Source of the DNA: Thermoplasmatota archaeon
GTDB taxonomy: Archaea; Thermoplasmatota; Thermoplasmata; Thermoplasmatales; Thermoplasmataceae
DNA length: 39,616 nucleotides
NCBI GenBank assembly: GCA_023487205.1
Contig: JAMDBT010000030.1
Span: forward strand, 1-39,616
Reading direction: 5' to 3'
Part shown: piece by piece, positions 1,311 through 10,232 of the stretch
Numbering within the stretch: the stretch's first letter is position 1
Layout: each line of letters begins with the position of its first letter
The notes under the pieces: generated by a model
Told to the model about the DNA's origin: nothing
The model's input: only the letters and a program-made list of their open reading frames with translations
Databases searched by the model: none
Translations under genes and position numbers: made by a program

Positions 1311-2342
1311 CTATTTCCAAAGAAACGGTGGATAGTCATCCAAGTCTCCCCTAATATTCCTTGCAAGAAGCATTGACTGAACATAAGGAATGAGGCCCAC
1401 CTGTATTTTCTCCTCTAGAAAAGTGTGAACGATTTCCTCCCTTTTCCTGTTCTGCCACGAGATTAGTACTTCCTTTCTTGTCTCGTCATTCATCAGAACA
1501 GCCCCATTTTCGCGTTTGACAAACCCGTTTTCTGAGACCTGTTTTCTGTTGATAAGGGACAATACCATTCTGTCAGCTAGATACGGCCTAAGTTCTTCCA
1601 TCACGTCAAGTGCGAGGCTCTTTCTTCCCGGTCTATCAGTATGCAGATAACCAACCTGGGGATCGAGGCCCACGGTTTCAAGTGCTGAGATGCATTCATG
1701 AGCCAGAAGTGTGTAAACGAACGAAAGAAGGGCATTTACATAATCTGTTGGTGGTCTCTTTATCCGTTCGCCGAATGTAAAATGTTCCTTTTGATTCATT
1801 ACCAGGCTGTCGAATTTGGAAAAATAGGCGTTAGCAGCCTCTCCCTCGATTCCCCTTACTGTATCAACCGAAGTGGCATTTTCGACCCTTCCGATCATGT
1901 CTTTCATGCGGTCTATGGTATTGCCGATACCATCGTCCGGAATTACATCGCCATGGTCTCTGATCACCCTTTGCAGGACTCTTCTAGAATTATGTATTTT
2001 TCCTTCAACGAATCGCTTAGCAAGCCTTAGTTTCTCGTGTTCCTCGTCGGCCCATCTGTACTGTTTTCTTCTAAGAAGAACGTTTCCTGAAACCTCGCCT
2101 GATACCCTAGCCAGAAACTTGCCGTGCTCGGTCAGAAAACTCAATTCGACACCTCTCTCGCTGCAAAGGTGCATGGCAGATGGGCTTGCCCCTATGTATC
2201 CAAAGCAGACGATACCTTCCAGATTATGAATAGGTACTCTGAAACGTATTTCGTCCTTGACCTTAACAAGAATGTTTTCTCCTTCTCGTGCGAGATACGA
2301 TTCCGGAGTCGTGACATAAAGGGTGTTGAGAAGCTTCCTCAC
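1311..2342 (-). CDS. cas1: CRISPR-associated integrase Cas1 (type I-C)
   Basis: The 343-residue product starts MRKLLNTLYVTTPESYL, typical of type I-C Cas1. It carries the metal-binding acidic/His set of the integrase: Glu in GIEGEAANAYF, His in VGYLHTDRPGRKS and the acidic residue of LALDVMEELRP. With Cas2 it inserts new spacers at the leader end of the array. The start is GTG and overlaps the cas4 stop by 4 bases (GTGA), which indicates translational coupling. The C-terminus ends about 14 bases before cas2. The length is normal and no key residue appears to be missing. The whole cas cluster is A+T richer than the ribosomal genes nearby. Confidence 0.97.
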   Translation of the reverse strand: MRKLLNTLYVTTPESYLAREGENILVKVKDEIRFRVPIHNLEGIVCFGYIGASPSAMHLCSERGVELSFLTEHGKFLARVSGEVSGNVLLRRKQYRWADEEHEKLRLAKRFVEGKIHNSRRVLQRVIRDHGDVIPDDGIGNTIDRMKDMIGRVENATSVDTVRGIEGEAANAYFSKFDSLVMNQKEHFTFGERIKRPPTDYVNALLSFVYTLLAHECISALETVGLDPQVGYLHTDRPGRKSLALDVMEELRPYLADRMVLSLINRKQVSENGFVKRENGAVLMNDETRKEVLISWQNRKREEIVHTFLEEKIQVGLIPYVQSMLLARNIRGDLDDYPPFLWK

Positions 2343-3001
2343 TCTAAATCCTTATCCTCATGTGTTAACAGTTTAGCTAGATACTTTCCAACAGCTCCAC
2401 TTGATGCGTTCCAATCGGGTTGGCAGATTTCGTACAGTGAGCACCGTAAACAGTGTTTTTCCTTCTTGGGAGCTGGCATGAATCCGCGACTGGCCATCCA
2501 ATGCATCTTAGTGGACAGGGTTTCAACGCGATCTCTGAGCTTACTGTCAAAAATTACTGTCTCTCTTCTGCGAGTCTCATTATAGTACAGGTAGCCTTCA
2601 TTCATGGTTATATTCAACATTTCTTCCAGGGCAATAGCTTGGGCACAAAGCTGGACTGCATCCCTATCATCAGGTTTAGGTCTCCCTCTCTTGTATTCGA
2701 CCGGCCATACTTTCCACCTTCCGGCTCTTCCCTCAAGGGAGATTGACTCCGTCCCCAGCAGATTGTCATCCCTTATGTATTCTATTACATCGGCTACTCC
2801 TTGCAACCCCAACTTCATTGATATTATTGGGACACTCCTGGTGGTACGAGTCTCCCCCCTAGTCTCATTTTCAAATGGGTTATCTGCGCGCTCGTGGACG
2901 TGCTTTCCCTCGACCGTGAGCACGTTTTCCTCCCACCGTTGCTCAATATGTATTAGGGCCCACTGCCTCTCACAGAAGGCCATATGCTGGATCCCCGACA
3001 A
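2339..3001 (-). CDS. cas4: CRISPR-associated exonuclease Cas4 (type I-C); true N-terminus probably upstream
   Basis: RecB-type PD-(D/E)XK nuclease with a 4Fe-4S cluster, used to trim and orient prespacers. From the TTG at 3001 the product is 220 residues. Visible features are the first cluster Cys in AFCERQWALIHIEQ, the nuclease VEYKRGRPK motif, and three C-terminal Cys in HCLRCSLYEICQPDW. The family usually begins about a dozen residues earlier. Here the same frame stays open for 15 codons back to the cas7 stop (3047) and encodes YSEDEFLLLSGIQH, which fits the family N-terminus. No ATG, GTG or other TTG lies in that stretch. Either TTG 3001 is used and the product is slightly short, or a start was lost by a small indel near the out-of-frame ATG at 3029-3031. 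Confidence 0.93.
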   Translation of the reverse strand: MSGIQHMAFCERQWALIHIEQRWEENVLTVEGKHVHERADNPFENETRGETRTTRSVPIISMKLGLQGVADVIEYIRDDNLLGTESISLEGRAGRWKVWPVEYKRGRPKPDDRDAVQLCAQAIALEEMLNITMNEGYLYYNETRRRETVIFDSKLRDRVETLSTKMHWMASRGFMPAPKKEKHCLRCSLYEICQPDWNASSGAVGKYLAKLLTHEDKDLE

Positions 3002-3046: not shown

Positions 3047-3961
3047 CTAACGTCCGCTAATGATCTCAGGCTTCAGGTCTGGGAACTCCTTAAGGTGAAT
3101 ATCATAGTCTTCAATGTTGGTTGCCTCAGTTAACCCTTCCTTTAGTGATATCTGCAATGAGTGGTGAACATCTGCAGACGAGTGTTGTCCATTCTTTGAA
3201 TTATGCCTCCACCAATAAACCCGGTAGACCTCCATGCTTCCTTCTGGTCTAGCAGAAGATGCGTCATTTTCAAATAGCCCTATCAAAGCCCCTTTGATCG
3301 CCTCTGCATCCTCGTCTGTAAATCCAGTCTTACTGGCCAACTGTGAGTTAATGCTACCGTAGAACACATAAACACCATAATCAACTCGATGCTTCATCCC
3401 CATGGTATCTGAAGACTTCTTCTTCCCATCTCCTTCACCGCTGACGCTCTTTGTGATCTGAATGCTTGAAATACTGATTGGATTTACGCTAAAGGCAGGA
3501 TGGATTGAAACGGGTCCTCGAATTCCAATCGAAACGGATTCGTTGCTACCCTCGTTCCTTTCTTCACTTTCGCCCACAGATTCAGTGCCTTTCTTTTTGC
3601 TTCGACCTTTATTCTGAGAACCCTTGTATGCAAATACCTGGCCGAATGCGCGTACATCAAGCCATTTCTTGCAGGCTTCCTCGCGAAATCTCTTTTCATC
3701 CCTAAGATAATCCTTTAATTCACCTTCAGCTCGTGCACGGAGACTCCGATAATCATCGATTCTATCATCATCTGGTTGAACAAATATTGGTTTTCCTGCC
3801 TCCATTAGTCGATTTCTTATCTTGCGTTTGATACTAACGTCTGAAAGTTCACCGTAACCTTCGTAATTGACACGAGGTCTATTTCCATTTAGTGGGTCTC
3901 CATTGGGATTCGCATTCCTCACGCTAACTATCACAGCAAAATCAATCTTGTGTTCCAACAT
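3047..3961 (-). CDS. cas7: Cascade backbone protein Cas7c/Csd2 (type I-C)
   Basis: The 304-residue product starts [23 protein letters not shown], followed by LPR/RPRVNYEGYG-type and SIKRKIRNRL motifs, the hallmark of Csd2. It forms the helical backbone that holds crRNA in the I-C surveillance complex. Other family blocks seen are DVRAFGQVFAYKG, GIRGPVSIHPAFSV, QITKSVSGE, SSDTMGMKHRVDYGVYVFYGS and NDASSARPEGSMEV. A low-complexity Lys/Glu/Ser stretch (about residues 118-143) is inserted before GIRGPVS. The ATG at 3961 overlaps the cas8c end by 20 bases and is preceded by AGGTGA at about 3968-3974. Confidence 0.96.
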   Translation of the reverse strand: MLEHKIDFAVIVSVRNANPNGDPLNGNRPRVNYEGYGELSDVSIKRKIRNRLMEAGKPIFVQPDDDRIDDYRSLRARAEGELKDYLRDEKRFREEACKKWLDVRAFGQVFAYKGSQNKGRSKKKGTESVGESEERNEGSNESVSIGIRGPVSIHPAFSVNPISISSIQITKSVSGEGDGKKKSSDTMGMKHRVDYGVYVFYGSINSQLASKTGFTDEDAEAIKGALIGLFENDASSARPEGSMEVYRVYWWRHNSKNGQHSSADVHHSLQISLKEGLTEATNIEDYDIHLKEFPDLKPEIISGR

Positions 3962-4370
3962 TTCCGTTCACCTCATTCTTTTCATCAACATCCAAAATTT
4001 GGCCTTGACTGTTTGTTTTCTGACTAATCCAGAGGGCCTCACGTTGGCAGTAATACCCTAGCAAAAATTCACCGCTCAACTTCTTATCGCTCTTGAAATC
4101 TTCCGCCAGAAATTTTGATCCCACCTCTGTTATTAATTTTTCCCTAGAGGACACCTTTTTCCCTAATCTTGCTTTATAAGGGGCAAGTGCGAGATAGATA
4201 GTTCGCCATGTAGTGAATGGGTGTTCCGCAAATCTGTTCATCAATCTTGCCGCGGTTGTTTGTCGATTTTCATCAGATTCGTTCAGAGCCCAACTTTCAA
4301 TATTATCAGCCAGTGCCAGAAGCCTTCCATACAGATAATCCCTTGATTTCCTATTTTCTTCTAAACTCAT
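3942..4370 (-). CDS. cas11c: Probable internally initiated small subunit Cas11c
   Basis: Type I-C systems are known to make the small Cascade subunit from an internal start in cas8c. Here Met500 of Cas8c (ATG at 4370-4368, minus strand) is followed by [20 protein letters not shown], the block where known I-C small subunits begin. It would give a 142-residue helical protein. The bases just upstream on the minus strand carry AGGGA about 6 bases before the ATG, a plausible ribosome-binding site. The seen parts are the ATG, the purine-rich site and the conserved block; use of the start is inference. Confidence 0.65.
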   Translation of the reverse strand: MSLEENRKSRDYLYGRLLALADNIESWALNESDENRQTTAARLMNRFAEHPFTTWRTIYLALAPYKARLGKKVSSREKLITEVGSKFLAEDFKSDKKLSGEFLLGYYCQREALWISQKTNSQGQILDVDEKNEVNGNVGTQD

Positions 4371-5867
4371 ATTAAATCCCTTACTCCAATAGTACTTTCT
4401 ATAAATCGCGCACGCGATACTGAGCGTTTTCTCCCACATCCTTTTTTCAATTCCAATTCGGTTTGAAGCACGCCGCACACATGACTCCACAATGTCTGCA
4501 GGTAACTTCTCACCATCAATGATGCAGGGAAGCAATCTTTCTAGAGTTGATTTCTGAAGTTTGTCGCTTATGTTTTTCCCGTAGGCCGATTCGGCTATGT
4601 CACTGAGTGCAGGGGTGCCAATATACTTGATAGCAATTTTCTGTTTGTCCCTTGAAATCCACCAAGAACAAGTCTCATACCAATTCTTTATCCTATTCAG
4701 GAAGTCTGACCCAGTCAATTCTCGATAGAATGTTATGGAGATCCTTCCGGGTGTAGCAGAATCAATACCCATAACTACGATGTCTGCAGAATCGCCGAGA
4801 TTGGTGTGGTATCCCCTTAATTTCTGGTTTAATTTATGGGCAAATTCTTCGGAAGTTGTTGCCGGGACCAACGAATCGTTATCTAGGAAGTCAAAAGAAT
4901 CCATTAAAGGATCTGGAACCTTGATCCCTGCAGTCGACCAAGCAACTATAGCCTGATCATTGTGCATGTATCCCTGTTTCCTGATTAGCCAGCGTAGGGC
5001 ATTGTGCGCTTTTTGTGTTACTTCGTAACTAACTCCGCACGCCTGATCCGAGGTCTGAAACCTCCCCCGGAATGTAAATCCAGAGGTATCGTTTGAAGAA
5101 ATTATCTTGGCTTGATCAGCATCATGTCTCAATTTTTTTGGGTGCTGTTCGGCTGCGAAACTCAGGTCTCCTGTAACATAGCAAAGAGTTTTGTGCGTTT
5201 TGGTAGATTCGTAATATTTCGCCCAGCTCTCGAACAATTTTCGATCTGTATGTAACTTTGTCTGAGGATCACCCGGGATTTCCACGCTCCAACGTACAAA
5301 AGCTTCGGCTTGACGTTTATTTGGGGAGACCTTGAAAATCTCAGGAATCGGCTTCTTTTCCCATTGTTCTATGAGTTCTCCATCAGGTCCGGCGACCAAT
5401 ACACCGTAATTTACTAGGTCCTTGATCACAGTGCCTTTCCGAATATAGTCCAATACCCTCACTGCCTTTGGATCCGAATTACCCGACTCGCACCACGCGC
5501 TTAGAAGCTTTTCATATTCTTCATATGGTTCCATTGGATTTTCAGCATAACCTGATGTAACCGTTCCTCCAAACTCACTGAAATCTTTGGCAACATATTG
5601 TAATTTGTCGCTCAGGGGGTGAGGCTTTGGTTTCTTTCCAGATCTCCCTCCTGATTCTTCAGTGCATGGGATGATAGTTTGGGAGTCAGTCTTTGGTAGC
5701 ACCGCGGCACGACTGAAGTCACCGTTGTGATCGATAGTGATCTCAATCTGTGCTTCTTGAGTTGTGTGACCAATTGGCAATAGTATAGCATCACCACTTG
5801 CTGTATCGAATGATGCTGTCGAGTGGCACTGTTCGTAGGTCTCATACAATTTTTGTATCCAACTCAT
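3942..5867 (-). CDS. cas8c: Cascade large subunit Cas8c/Csd1 (type I-C)
   Basis: The 641-residue product opens [14 protein letters not shown], like Csd1 proteins (short N-terminal LY..Y helix, then a beta domain with [16 protein letters not shown]). Cas8c recognises the PAM and recruits Cas3. Later blocks are typical: [42 protein letters not shown] and, near the C-terminus, [16 protein letters not shown]. The ATG start (5867) overlaps the cas5c stop by 4 bases (ATGA), so it is translationally coupled. The C-terminal 142 residues probably also exist as a separate small subunit (see the Cas11c entry). The length is within or slightly above the family range. Identification rests on both sequence blocks and operon position. 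Confidence 0.95.
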
Positions 5868-6589
5868 GAACTATCCCTCCACCCCTCCAAATTGTCCTTG
5901 AGCAGTTCCTCCTCCATTAATCCTACAGAATCAATCTTGCTCGCAACCATTGGCCTTACAAACTTGGTAAATGTACACTCGTCCGGGCGAATGAATCGAA
6001 TAACGCCGTTGTTCATCCTTGGGTGCCAGAATCTGGCGCGAAGTTCGTCAAATCCAATTTCGTCAGGGTAATCGAAACCATGAAACATAAAGTCAAATGA
6101 CAACTCGCCGCATTGATCATAGAACCCAATCCCAGAGCCGAATTGGCAGGGTTCAACGTAGCCCTGACATTCACGCGTCCCAAGAAAAATGTCTCTTCTT
6201 CCACCTCTTTCAATCATTCTCTTCGCAACGAAGTAATGCTTGTTTTCGTTCCGGTCCTGTTCCATATCTGGTCTGTTTCTGTTCCACTCGAAGTGAGCCT
6301 GCACCTGATACTCAACATCTGCCAAATATGTATAAATGCTCAACTCGTGTTTTCCTTCCCCGTAGCTGATAGGCTTTGCACTTCTGGTCTGGGTCTTGAT
6401 AGGTTTCATAACACGCATCTTATCTATCAACCAAATAATGGTTGGTTTCCAATATGCCGACTCCAATATTCCCTTCAAAGCCTGATACGTTGGAATTTGG
6501 TAAGATGACTTTTCTCCCCCTATCTTAGTAAGCGGATCAGTAAACAAGGCATACTTCCCATAAACCCTAAACTCTACCTTGTTTTCCAC
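5864..6589 (-). CDS. cas5c: crRNA-processing endoribonuclease Cas5c/Cas5d (type I-C)
   Basis: The 241-residue RAMP protein opens with [14 protein letters not shown] and continues [20 protein letters not shown]. In type I-C, which lacks Cas6, Cas5c cuts the pre-crRNA at the base of the repeat hairpin and stays on the crRNA 5' handle. Residues Tyr46, Lys117 and His118 fall at the places of the catalytic Tyr/Lys/His triad described for Bacillus halodurans Cas5c. The family block [15 protein letters not shown] is present. The start is GTG with a strong AGGTGA just upstream, and the gene ends in a 4-base overlap with cas8c. No separate cas6 gene is visible in the window, as expected. Confidence 0.95.
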
Positions 6590-6600
6590 CTTTCACCTCA

Positions 6601-9090
6601 CTATGCATTATAAAAGGGCATATCGCTAGTTGGTTCACCACTAAAGCCATGATCTTGATCATAATAAGAGCTTTCGATATAAAAAATCTCGGCTCTGTCT
6701 CGAATTTCATGAATGACTCCCTGCGCCCTCAAATTCTGAAATTCGTAGTCAAAGAGATCTATAGAATACCTCTGAGCGGCCTTTATTAGTCTGTACTCAG
6801 TTTCAAGACTGGGGGCACCGCAAAGCTTCTCAATAATTCCTGCTCCGGCCCTATACGGAACAATTACCCCATGCACATTCGAATCTATGACATTAAATGC
6901 GTTGGAAGCTGTCATAAATGACTGTCTCAGTTGTATATTGGGTGATGAATTATTAATTCTGTTGTATTCCTGAAGCGAAATGGAGTTGGTCGATAAAAGG
7001 TTAAACAGAGTATCTTCCCTATTCACTAGAGAGCCTCTATGAATCTTATAAGGCATCTCATCCTTTTTGTCATAGAAGAAATATGTGTAATATGTTTCAA
7101 TAGCTTTTGGCCCAAGAACATCCTCATCGAATTGTTTCGGGTCTCTCTTAAAATCATTCAACACGCGCTGTGCAATATCCCTGCCTGTCGAAATACTCTT
7201 CAAATTGCTGAGGTTCTCATCTTTGGGATTTATTACAAAGAACCTTCCAAGAGAAGCTCTACTTCCATTGCGATTGCATCTGCCCGCAGCCTGGGCTAAC
7301 GAGTCCAGGCCTGCCAGATATCGTATTACACTTCCGAAATCTATGTCTATTCCTGCTTCAATGAGCTGAGTGCTAACACAAACCACCCGCCCCCCTTCTT
7401 CTAAGCGACTCTTCATACCTCTTAATACTTCCATTCTGTGTTCAGGGCACATGTTTGTGCTTAGATGATAAACTGCGCCATAAGTCTGACTTATTAATTG
7501 CTGAAATAGCCTAAGGGCACCTTTCTTCGTGTTGACTACCACAAGTACGCTTCCAGAGGATTCTAGTTCTTCTTTTACAAGGGCAGCAATTTCTTCTTCT
7601 CGCCATCCACCCGCTTTTCGTTTGTCGAAAAATATCACCCTTCTTAATTCACTGAACAATTGCCCAAGATCTGGAATCATTTCATGTTCGGGGTCAATGT
7701 GAAGGGCTCTTTGAATAGGCTCGATTTTATCAAGCAAGGGCTGAGTCGCCGTGCATAGAACTGCGGTTGAACCACAGTCATCGACAAGAAATTGTACAGC
7801 CACGTTGAAAATTTGAACGCATTTAACAGGAAGGGTTTGCACTTCATCGAAAATTACCACGGAATTCGCAAGGTTGTGCATCCTTCGTGCGTCTCTTGTA
7901 CCGTGACCATAAATAGTATCTAAGAACTTTACCATCGTCGTATAGATTATTGGGGCATCCCAATTTTCCGCTAATAATTTCTGACGAGACGTTTCCTCTT
8001 CAGGAGTTAGGTTTGAATGATGCTCCAGTACAATATTTTCTGGTTTCAGTCCATTTTTATCATTGTTCTCTAATATGTCTATTGCCTTTCCAGCATTCTG
8101 GTCAATTATCGAAGTGTATGGTATAACGTACACAATTCTATCCATCCCATGGATTTGTGCATGTTTCAGTGCAAACCTGAGACTTGAGAGAGTTTTTCCC
8201 CCTCCCGTTGGGACTGACAATTTATAGATGCCTTTAGGCTTAGCAGAAAAATTAAAACAGCTATCGGATACTTTTTGGCGAATCGCGTCGATTCTTTTCT
8301 CTACTTCGGTTTTCCCTGAAGAAAACTCTTCTAGTTTTCTTAAGTATGAATCAAGTCTTTCTATCAGTGCATTCCAATTTTCAAAGCCCTTCAAGTTTCT
8401 TGTGTTGCTTTGTTTTGGAAATTCAAAATCTGCTGTGTTAATCCTATCCGCATCTATCAGACAACTGAAGAGATATCGGGTAAGTAGTCCAACCTTGAAC
8501 CAGTACGTTTCGCGCGAGTCAGTTTTCTTTTTCAATGATCTAACCTTTTGATTTAGGCTTTCTACTACGGTATCACTCGCCAGAATTTCCCAAACGGCGT
8601 GGCCAATTACTTCGCCTAGATTTGCTTCGCATTCTCTTAAGTGCGTTTTTTCTTCAAGTTTATTCATACGCTTTTCAAAAATATCGTTTCCACTGGGATC
8701 GAGACAGTCGATCAATCCTGAATGATGAGATGCAATCACCAGAGACAACAGTTGGGATGACAACAAGGTATCGTTTGATTTACCTTTAAAGAATTCGTGA
8801 ATCATTTGGGCACCAGCGCTAGAGTGATCTATCTTCCCCTTATTGGTCGTCGGATCTACATATTGATCCTCATCTGAATTTATCAATCCAGTTGCTGACC
8901 TTATATATCTGAGGAATTCGTTGCTCGCCTTTCCCAGATCGTGCAGTAATCCAACTATTTTCCCTTGTTGCCCAAGTCCAATCTTAGCAGCGAATTGTTC
9001 GGTTAGTGAAGATGTCTCTAATAGGTGTTGCGAGAGACTTTGTGACTGCCCATCTTCCTCACGAATGTGCGCTATGTATTCTTTGTTCAT
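6601..9090 (-). CDS. cas3: Cas3 HD nuclease-helicase (type I-C)
   Basis: The 829-residue protein has the fused HD nuclease and superfamily 2 helicase layout. HD part: His22, LLHDLGK (His50-Asp51), DHSSAG (His89), SHHSG (122-123) and a late LIDADR (Asp213/Asp215). Helicase part: Walker A VPTGGGKT (about 293-300), the DEVQ box in VIFDEVQTLP (415-418), TATQPLL, and motif VI AQAAGRCNRNG. It is recruited by Cascade and degrades the DNA target processively. It is the first gene of the cas operon; ATG at 9090. All catalytic residues appear intact, so the interference module looks functional. cas5c follows 10 bases downstream. Confidence 0.97.
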   Translation of the reverse strand: MNKEYIAHIREEDGQSQSLSQHLLETSSLTEQFAAKIGLGQQGKIVGLLHDLGKASNEFLRYIRSATGLINSDEDQYVDPTTNKGKIDHSSAGAQMIHEFFKGKSNDTLLSSQLLSLVIASHHSGLIDCLDPSGNDIFEKRMNKLEEKTHLRECEANLGEVIGHAVWEILASDTVVESLNQKVRSLKKKTDSRETYWFKVGLLTRYLFSCLIDADRINTADFEFPKQSNTRNLKGFENWNALIERLDSYLRKLEEFSSGKTEVEKRIDAIRQKVSDSCFNFSAKPKGIYKLSVPTGGGKTLSSLRFALKHAQIHGMDRIVYVIPYTSIIDQNAGKAIDILENNDKNGLKPENIVLEHHSNLTPEEETSRQKLLAENWDAPIIYTTMVKFLDTIYGHGTRDARRMHNLANSVVIFDEVQTLPVKCVQIFNVAVQFLVDDCGSTAVLCTATQPLLDKIEPIQRALHIDPEHEMIPDLGQLFSELRRVIFFDKRKAGGWREEEIAALVKEELESSGSVLVVVNTKKGALRLFQQLISQTYGAVYHLSTNMCPEHRMEVLRGMKSRLEEGGRVVCVSTQLIEAGIDIDFGSVIRYLAGLDSLAQAAGRCNRNGSRASLGRFFVINPKDENLSNLKSISTGRDIAQRVLNDFKRDPKQFDEDVLGPKAIETYYTYFFYDKKDEMPYKIHRGSLVNREDTLFNLLSTNSISLQEYNRINNSSPNIQLRQSFMTASNAFNVIDSNVHGVIVPYRAGAGIIEKLCGAPSLETEYRLIKAAQRYSIDLFDYEFQNLRAQGVIHEIRDRAEIFYIESSYYDQDHGFSGEPTSDMPFYNA

Positions 9091-9170: not shown

Positions 9171-9314
9171 TTGGGGACCTTGTGGACCCTCAGATACGAG
9201 ATAGCAGAGATAAGAAGATACGTAAAGAAACCATCGAAGCTGGGCGAGATTCTCGATGTCGTCCGAAACGGGAAAGCGATGCGATTAAGCTCTAACTCCC
9301 GCTGTTTTGCATAA
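9171..9314 (+). pseudogene. Short unrecognised ORF remnant cut by the transposon 3' end
   Basis: A plus-strand frame opening at TTG 9171 (or TTG 9180) encodes 47 residues, including LRYEIAEIRRYVKKPSKLGE and ILDVVRNGKAMR, then stops at 9312-9314 inside the 3' end of the opposing transposase frame. The charged helical character looks like real coding sequence, such as the N-terminus of a regulator, that was truncated when the insertion element arrived. The family is not recognised. It could equally be chance. Confidence 0.3.
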
Positions 9315-10232
9315 TATGCATCTGGAGCCCCTCAATCAGGACCCTGGATTTCTTGGGTATTTCGGATATCTTCCACTCCTCCCCGATCTTCAGCATGAAG
9401 ACCCTCCCGAGATGATCCAGCACGTCCTGTGGCGAGTATTTCCCCAGGAGGTCTTTGCTCCTCAGGAGACCATATATCCTGTAGTGGATCATCAGTGCGA
9501 TGAAGTTCGCGAACATCCAACCCTGCAGCTGGTGATCGTCCCTCAAGTATGCCCGATCGGCATGAATCGTATTCTTGAACGTGTCGTAGGGTTGCTCTAT
9601 CTCAGACCGGGACTTCAGCATCACGTACACGATTTCGCCTGAGACCTTCAGGTTCGTGATCACCAATATGGTCCCCACGCTCTCCCTTAAGGCTGTGAAT
9701 CGTGCCGGTGATCCGGATCGGGCAAGGAAGTCCTTCTCCTCCTCGGCCTTCAGGAAATCGTTCCTGAAGGTGTACATGGCACGGTTGCCAACGGCATATT
9801 TCCTGTAGAATATGGGATGATCCTGGAACTTGAAGTGCCTCTCCCCTTCAGGGGGATGACATGGAAGATGCCCATGGAATCAAGTGCCGATGTGTTAGAG
9901 GAGGAATAGAACCCCGTATCTGCAACCAGCACCATCCTCTTGGCGCCGGATTCCTCCATGGTGAGTTTCAGGGAAGCCACGCTGTTTACTGCCCCGGGCA
10001 GGATGCGGAAATGTGCCGGCATCTCGTGATCCAGGGAGAAGAGGAAGAGGATCTGCACCTGTGGCAGGTATTCCTCCATGCCGTTGTGTCCCAGGGTTGC
10101 CGATATGATCCCCTCGCTCATGGACAGGACGTGCGTCAGATCGACGGCAAGATAGCGGTAGCTCTCTAAAATAACGGAAAAGAGCAGGGAAAAGATGGAA
10201 GAAAAGAAAGAATTCCAGTGAATCCGCCCCAT
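9292..10232 (-). pseudogene. Broken IS4/IS1634-type DDE transposase
   Basis: Two adjoining minus-strand frames form one decayed transposase. The upstream part (10232-9750) holds YLAVDLTHVLSMSEGIISA, GHNGMEEYLPQVQILFLFSL, FRILPGAVNSVASL and LVADTGFYSSSN, matching the first two catalytic Asp regions of the IS1634 group. The downstream part (to 9292) holds YRKYAVGNRAMYTFRNDFLK, the QLQGWMFANFIALMIHYRIY block and a typical C-terminus. The join requires one extra base in the four-C run at 9843-9846: with it, the text reads through as KGERHFKFQDHPIFY. A stop at 10245-10247 and missing N-terminal domain show 5' truncation. Catalytic activity is not expected. Confidence 0.85.

Follow-up and report, generated by a model that had tools for sequence, protein, structure and literature searches.

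Results

A complete type I-C operon in an archaeal genome

The stretch of DNA analysed here (the window) comprises 39,616 nucleotides of contig JAMDBT010000030.1 from the Thermoplasmatota archaeon assembly GCA_023487205.1. It carries a complete type I-C operon of the order cas3-cas5c-cas8c-cas7c-cas4-cas1c-cas2 together with a CRISPR array (positions 15-834, no strand assigned), of which 13 exact copies of a 32-base repeat lie inside the window. All of the cas genes are on the minus strand: cas3, encoding a helicase and an HD domain (6601-9090; TIGR01587, 117 bits, and TIGR01596, 97 bits); cas5c (5864-6589; TIGR01876, 250 bits), which overlaps cas8c; cas8c itself, encoding the 641-residue type I-C large subunit (3942-5867; TIGR01863, 414 bits against a cut-off of 218.65, and PF09709, 427 bits); cas7c (3047-3961; TIGR02589, 313 bits), which shares 20 nt with the end of cas8c; cas4, the start codon of which is uncertain (2339-3001; TIGR00372, 130 bits); cas1c (1311-2342; TIGR03640, 505 bits); and cas2 (1006-1296; TIGR01573, 66 bits). 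Models for subtype I-C were passed above cut-off by cas1c, cas7c, cas8c and cas5c, and general models recognised cas3, cas4 and cas2. No separate small-subunit gene is present among these operon genes; all the way from cas3 through cas2, neighbouring genes adjoin or overlap and leave no room for one between them.

The host of the contig is an archaeon. The archaeal model gave the best match to both 16S fragments of the genome (920 and 708 bits), and the operon's own contig encodes ribosomal proteins L11 and L1 of archaeal type that score over cut-off, the two models concerned being, we presume, the archaeal ones. The idea that the host might be a methanogen was dropped, McrA not having been found in the genome. 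An apparent broken insertion sequence separates cas3 from the archaeal ribosomal-protein genes. Its two minus-strand ORFs (9292-10232) match neighbouring parts of a single DDE transposase (PF01609, each slightly below cut-off), and it could be related to the arrival of the operon.

An internal ATG in cas8c with a weak local signal

A previous reading of this DNA, made from the sequence alone (the sequence-only reading), proposed that the small subunit Cas11c is translated from an internal start at Met500 of Cas8c, behind a correctly spaced AGGGA site. The in-frame ATG is present at 4370-4368 on the minus strand, where it forms codon 500 of the 641-codon cas8c, and it would open a coding region of 142 amino acids (3942-4370, minus strand; 16.3 kDa, or 16,345 Da). 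The AGGGA (4377-4381, minus strand) also lies where it was said to, 6 nt before the ATG, but as an SD sequence it is weak: AAGGGATTT pairs with the 3' end of the organism's own 16S at -4.1 kcal/mol and with a bulge. This 3' end reads ATCACCTCCT, and the host 16S can therefore pair with SD sequences. The strongest anti-SD pairing in the region, at -5.9 kcal/mol, is that of a GGAG (4384-4387, minus strand) located 13 nt from the ATG.

A start pairing of -5.9 kcal/mol or stronger is found in 13 of the 27 long ORFs of the window, and among its 221 internal ATGs 33 reach -5.9 kcal/mol and 64 reach -4.1 kcal/mol. As synonymous-codon shuffling of the Met500 site alone moreover gave P = 0.30, the local motif, taken by itself, is within chance reach of internal ATGs, and it is the conservation of the start codon described below that rises above chance. 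Met500 has the best SD pairing of the seven in-frame internal ATGs of cas8c, with three TTG codons scoring higher and one GTG equally; the gene's own start pairs more strongly, at -11.4. The mRNA around Met500 is locally open, only 6.7% of positions in the gene being as open.

The predicted product matches bacterial Cas11c in register and fold

Alignment of the window's Cas8c with a known small subunit places the two proteins in the same register. A phmmer comparison paired residue 501 with residue 2 of D. vulgaris Cas11c (7kha_K), in a match that is itself weak (E 0.28 for the whole protein, 0.032 for the C-terminus). An AlphaFold2 model of the 142-residue product, built with 55 relatives, has a pLDDT of 92.2 and predicts the helical bundle fold of the small subunit, and its residues 1-116 superpose on residues 1-119 of Cas11c (8dex_J) with Z 16.3 and an rmsd of 1.6 over 110 aligned residues. 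In this structure match residue 1 of the model falls on residue 1 of D. vulgaris Cas11c, that is, on residue 489 of full-length D. vulgaris Cas8c. The claim that Met500 lies where bacterial I-C small subunits start is thus borne out, for the D. vulgaris protein, by both the sequence and the predicted fold.

The first ten rows of the structure search were all I-C Cas11 or Cas8 chains with Z of at least 14.3, and the next row had Z 2.9. Entries 8G9S and 8G9U, which we take to be Cas11 of the Neisseria lactamica I-C system, match the model at Z 14.3-14.8 and have Met as the aligned residue, although that system, unlike the one in the window, is bacterial. The D. vulgaris I-C Cas11c resembles the proposed product in gene, position and fold, and differs in that it is bacterial, is a proven separate product, and starts with GTG behind a near-perfect SD sequence, the DNA at this start being GGAGGTGCCC-GTG and the plasmid carrying the GTG behind GGAGGTG. 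It is reported to consist of Cas8c residues 489-612 and to be present in two copies per complex (O'Brien, 2020; PMC7684278).

A start codon is conserved in all 89 aligned cas8c genes

The TIGR01863 model recognised cas8c in six genomes of a draw of 389 from the phylum and in eight of a draw of 400 from the class; the two draws overlap and include the window's own genome. Used alone as a query, the window's Cas8c found no relative in genome_contigs or viral_contigs. With an alignment of four archaeal proteins as query, at least 546 of 587 stretches from genome_contigs were confirmed, and the best 80, all bacterial relatives, were kept, so that the bacterial set leans towards window-like sequences. 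Together with the eight genes from archaeal genomes (window included) and that of D. vulgaris, these gave an alignment of 89 cas8c genes.

At the position of Met500, 83 genes have ATG, four TTG and two GTG, so that all 89 carry a start codon there, the bacterial part being the best 80 of at least 546; among the 603 columns scanned this is the only one with a start codon in every row. Wherever the residue is Leu the codon is TTG (4/4; these rows form one clade and therefore count as about one event), and where it is Val the codon is GTG (2/2), although in the genes concerned TTG accounts for 12-18 of the 56-61 Leu codons and GTG for 12-14 of the 34-35 Val codons. The sequence-only reading had named loss of the ATG or its site in close relatives as one observation that would tell against it; the start codon is instead retained in all 89 genes and an SD-like word in 78 of them.

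More distant, plasmid-borne I-C genes were represented by 10 of 45 matching records, that of D. vulgaris among them. In six of the ten the exact codon is ATG or GTG; in the remaining four an ATG is displaced from it by one or two codons. These four come from Parabacteroides, Streptomyces, Thermus and Allomeiothermus (L094, L097, L098 and L099), and the Parabacteroides gene is without an SD sequence.

In the archaeal genes, all from the window's phylum, the Met500 position has a start codon in eight of eight (seven ATG, one GTG). The SD pairing of this codon is the strongest among the gene's in-frame internal ATGs in seven of the eight, the exception being L006, where it is poor (-4.0) and ranks fifth of 12. 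Combined, the first six archaeal genes gave P = 0.26 in synonymous shuffles; such shuffles have little power on single genes, and weight was accordingly put on the family-wide test and on conserved-Met controls.

SD-like words and open mRNA accompany the conserved codon

Across the family an SD-like word precedes the Met500-equivalent codon in 78 of 89 genes, typically 8-9 nt away. At three other conserved Met columns used as controls, those of Met543, Met366 and Met376, such a word was found in 0 of 84, 8 of 73 and 0 of 68 genes, respectively, and mean pairing was -0.6, -2.3 and -2.1 kcal/mol, compared with -7.1 kcal/mol at the Met500 column. In synonymous shuffles 32 of 38 representatives (less than 60% identity) paired more strongly than their own null mean (Wilcoxon P 3.6e-8), and an earlier run on 36 representatives gave a Fisher P of 1.5e-6. 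The mRNA shows the same distinction: the median fraction of the gene at least as open is 0.069 at the Met500 column versus 0.537, 0.725 and 0.5 at Mets 543, 366 and 376. The combination of start codon, SD-like word and open mRNA is therefore found at the Met500 column and at none of the three controls, and the ribosome-binding signal before the internal start is weak in the window gene but strong across the cas8c family.

Discussion

Here we have compared the cas8c gene of an archaeal type I-C operon with its relatives, and the sequence comparison and the structural model together make us confident that this gene encodes two proteins, Cas8c and, by internal initiation at Met500, Cas11c. Met500 is very probably the start of the predicted 142-residue, 16.3 kDa protein, because all 89 aligned genes have a start codon there, in 78 of them behind an SD-like word, and the surrounding mRNA is open, a combination lacking at the control Mets. 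According to the model, ribosomes entering at the normal start of cas8c would give full-length Cas8c, and other ribosomes would initiate inside the gene at the Met500 ATG to give Cas11c, assisted by the weak SD-like purine stretch and by the locally unstructured mRNA. Cas11c would then duplicate, as a protein of its own, the helical bundle at the C-terminus of Cas8c. From the D. vulgaris complex we infer its stoichiometry and role: two small-subunit copies would run along the belly of the I-C Cascade, where they would keep hold of the displaced target-DNA strand.

It is improbable that the start was functional in a bacterial donor and is decaying here, the SD sequence having weakened since transfer and Cas11c being made poorly or not at all. 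The window's Cas8c adjoins Bacillota-type sequences in the tree (60-61% identity to L009), and its SD pairing of -5.9 (-4.1 at proper spacing) is weaker than at the equivalent codon of its nearest bacterial relatives, three of which are at about -10 (L009, -10.1; L010, -10.5; L012, -10.0) and the fourth at -7.4 (L011), as such decay would have it. However, the ATG and the openness of the mRNA have both been kept, the cas reading frames are still recognisable as members of their families, and the array retains 13 exact repeats. We think it very improbable that Met500 has been kept only for the Cas8c protein, as a residue of structural importance at the linker leading to the C-terminal bundle, with no separate Cas11c in this archaeon. 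The chance level of the local motif alone would be compatible with this, as would the good conservation of other Mets, such as Met543, which has a start codon in 84 of 89 genes; yet residue 500 may be Leu or Val with the codon remaining TTG or GTG, in the four plasmid genes described above the ATG lies a codon or two away from the usual place, and Met543 has neither an SD-like word nor open mRNA. Proteolysis of Cas8c, by which a short Cas8b fragment in the I-B systems of Clostridium thermocellum and Methanococcus maripaludis was once explained (Richter, 2017, cited in PMC11899642), is scarcely credible as the source of Cas11c, the conserved features being start codons and SD-like words, for which proteolysis has no need.

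Internal translation of the small subunit is described as established for bacterial I-B, I-C and I-D systems (PMC10212523; PMC11899642; PMC7684278). The I-D protein Cas11d is, like the candidate Cas11c of the window, made from the 3' end of a large-subunit gene, although there the large subunit is Cas10d, and a review reports it to be widely conserved, one mostly archaeal lineage included (PMC10212523). An archaeal parallel is Cas11b of Haloferax volcanii, for which translation likewise starts at an ATG inside cas8, in frame and behind a non-standard SD sequence, but which belongs to subtype I-B and to another Cas8 family and is reported as proven by mass spectrometry and by an M545A substitution that abolishes Cas11b (Sailer, 2025; PMC11899642). 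The suggestion of the sequence-only reading that the bacterial mechanism also operates in an archaeon is thus supported by comparison for I-C, but the broad claim is not new, experiment having already reached it for the Haloferax I-B protein.

For the archaeon Methanomassiliicoccus luminyensis, a 2014 study reported an I-C system (PMC4153887). Our literature searches found no report of Cas11c from an archaeal I-C system, and Cas11c in archaeal I-C therefore appears to be a new instance. Given how well internal translation is established elsewhere, the predicted Cas11c start in archaeal cas8c is an expected extension of a known mechanism, well supported by comparison. Demonstrating an archaeal Cas11c would tell those who rebuild archaeal I-C systems to supply it, and would give an uncomplicated example in which to study how the ribosomes of archaea begin translation within a reading frame. 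It should be noted that Cas11c was annotated as its own CDS in none of the ten plasmid records (L091-L100; the PLSDB table is incomplete), and so goes unseen in these gene tables even though the I-C Cascade is reported not to assemble without it (cited in PMC11899642).

Two very different branches of I-C Cas8c, one with the window sequence, L005, L007, L008 and L090 and the other with L003, L006 and L089, are patchily distributed in one archaeal class (8 of the 400 genomes drawn). In a quick tree of cas8c, L005, L007, L008 and L090 form one archaeal group, and L003, L006 and L089 lie in a distant D. vulgaris-like branch, L003 and L006 on long branches. The patchy distribution points to repeated transfer of I-C from bacteria, and the presence of two branches would mean that at least two kinds of I-C entered the class, if the direction of transfer is as we suppose. 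The window's I-C was joined with the four-member clade in 0% of 200 bootstrap trees, with an AU p of 0.058 (30 of the 89 rows); separate entry of the two is thus borderline, and we do not claim a separate origin as shown.

These observations raise the possibility, which we put forward tentatively and at somewhat less than even chances, that I-C operons moved from bacteria to archaea more than once, carrying with them a built-in start that archaeal ribosomes used directly, and that selection kept this start in all of the archaeal genes sampled. In the window gene the SD sequence would have decayed, so that the start of translation would depend mostly on an AUG lying in open mRNA and not on strong SD pairing. 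If true, this would provide a testable case of archaeal internal initiation with little help from an SD sequence.

The SD-like word is missing in 11 of the 89 rows, three Chlorobiaceae and a verrucomicrobium among them (L044, L049, L060 and L028). These genes keep the internal ATG all the same, which suggests that internal initiation there may be SD-independent.
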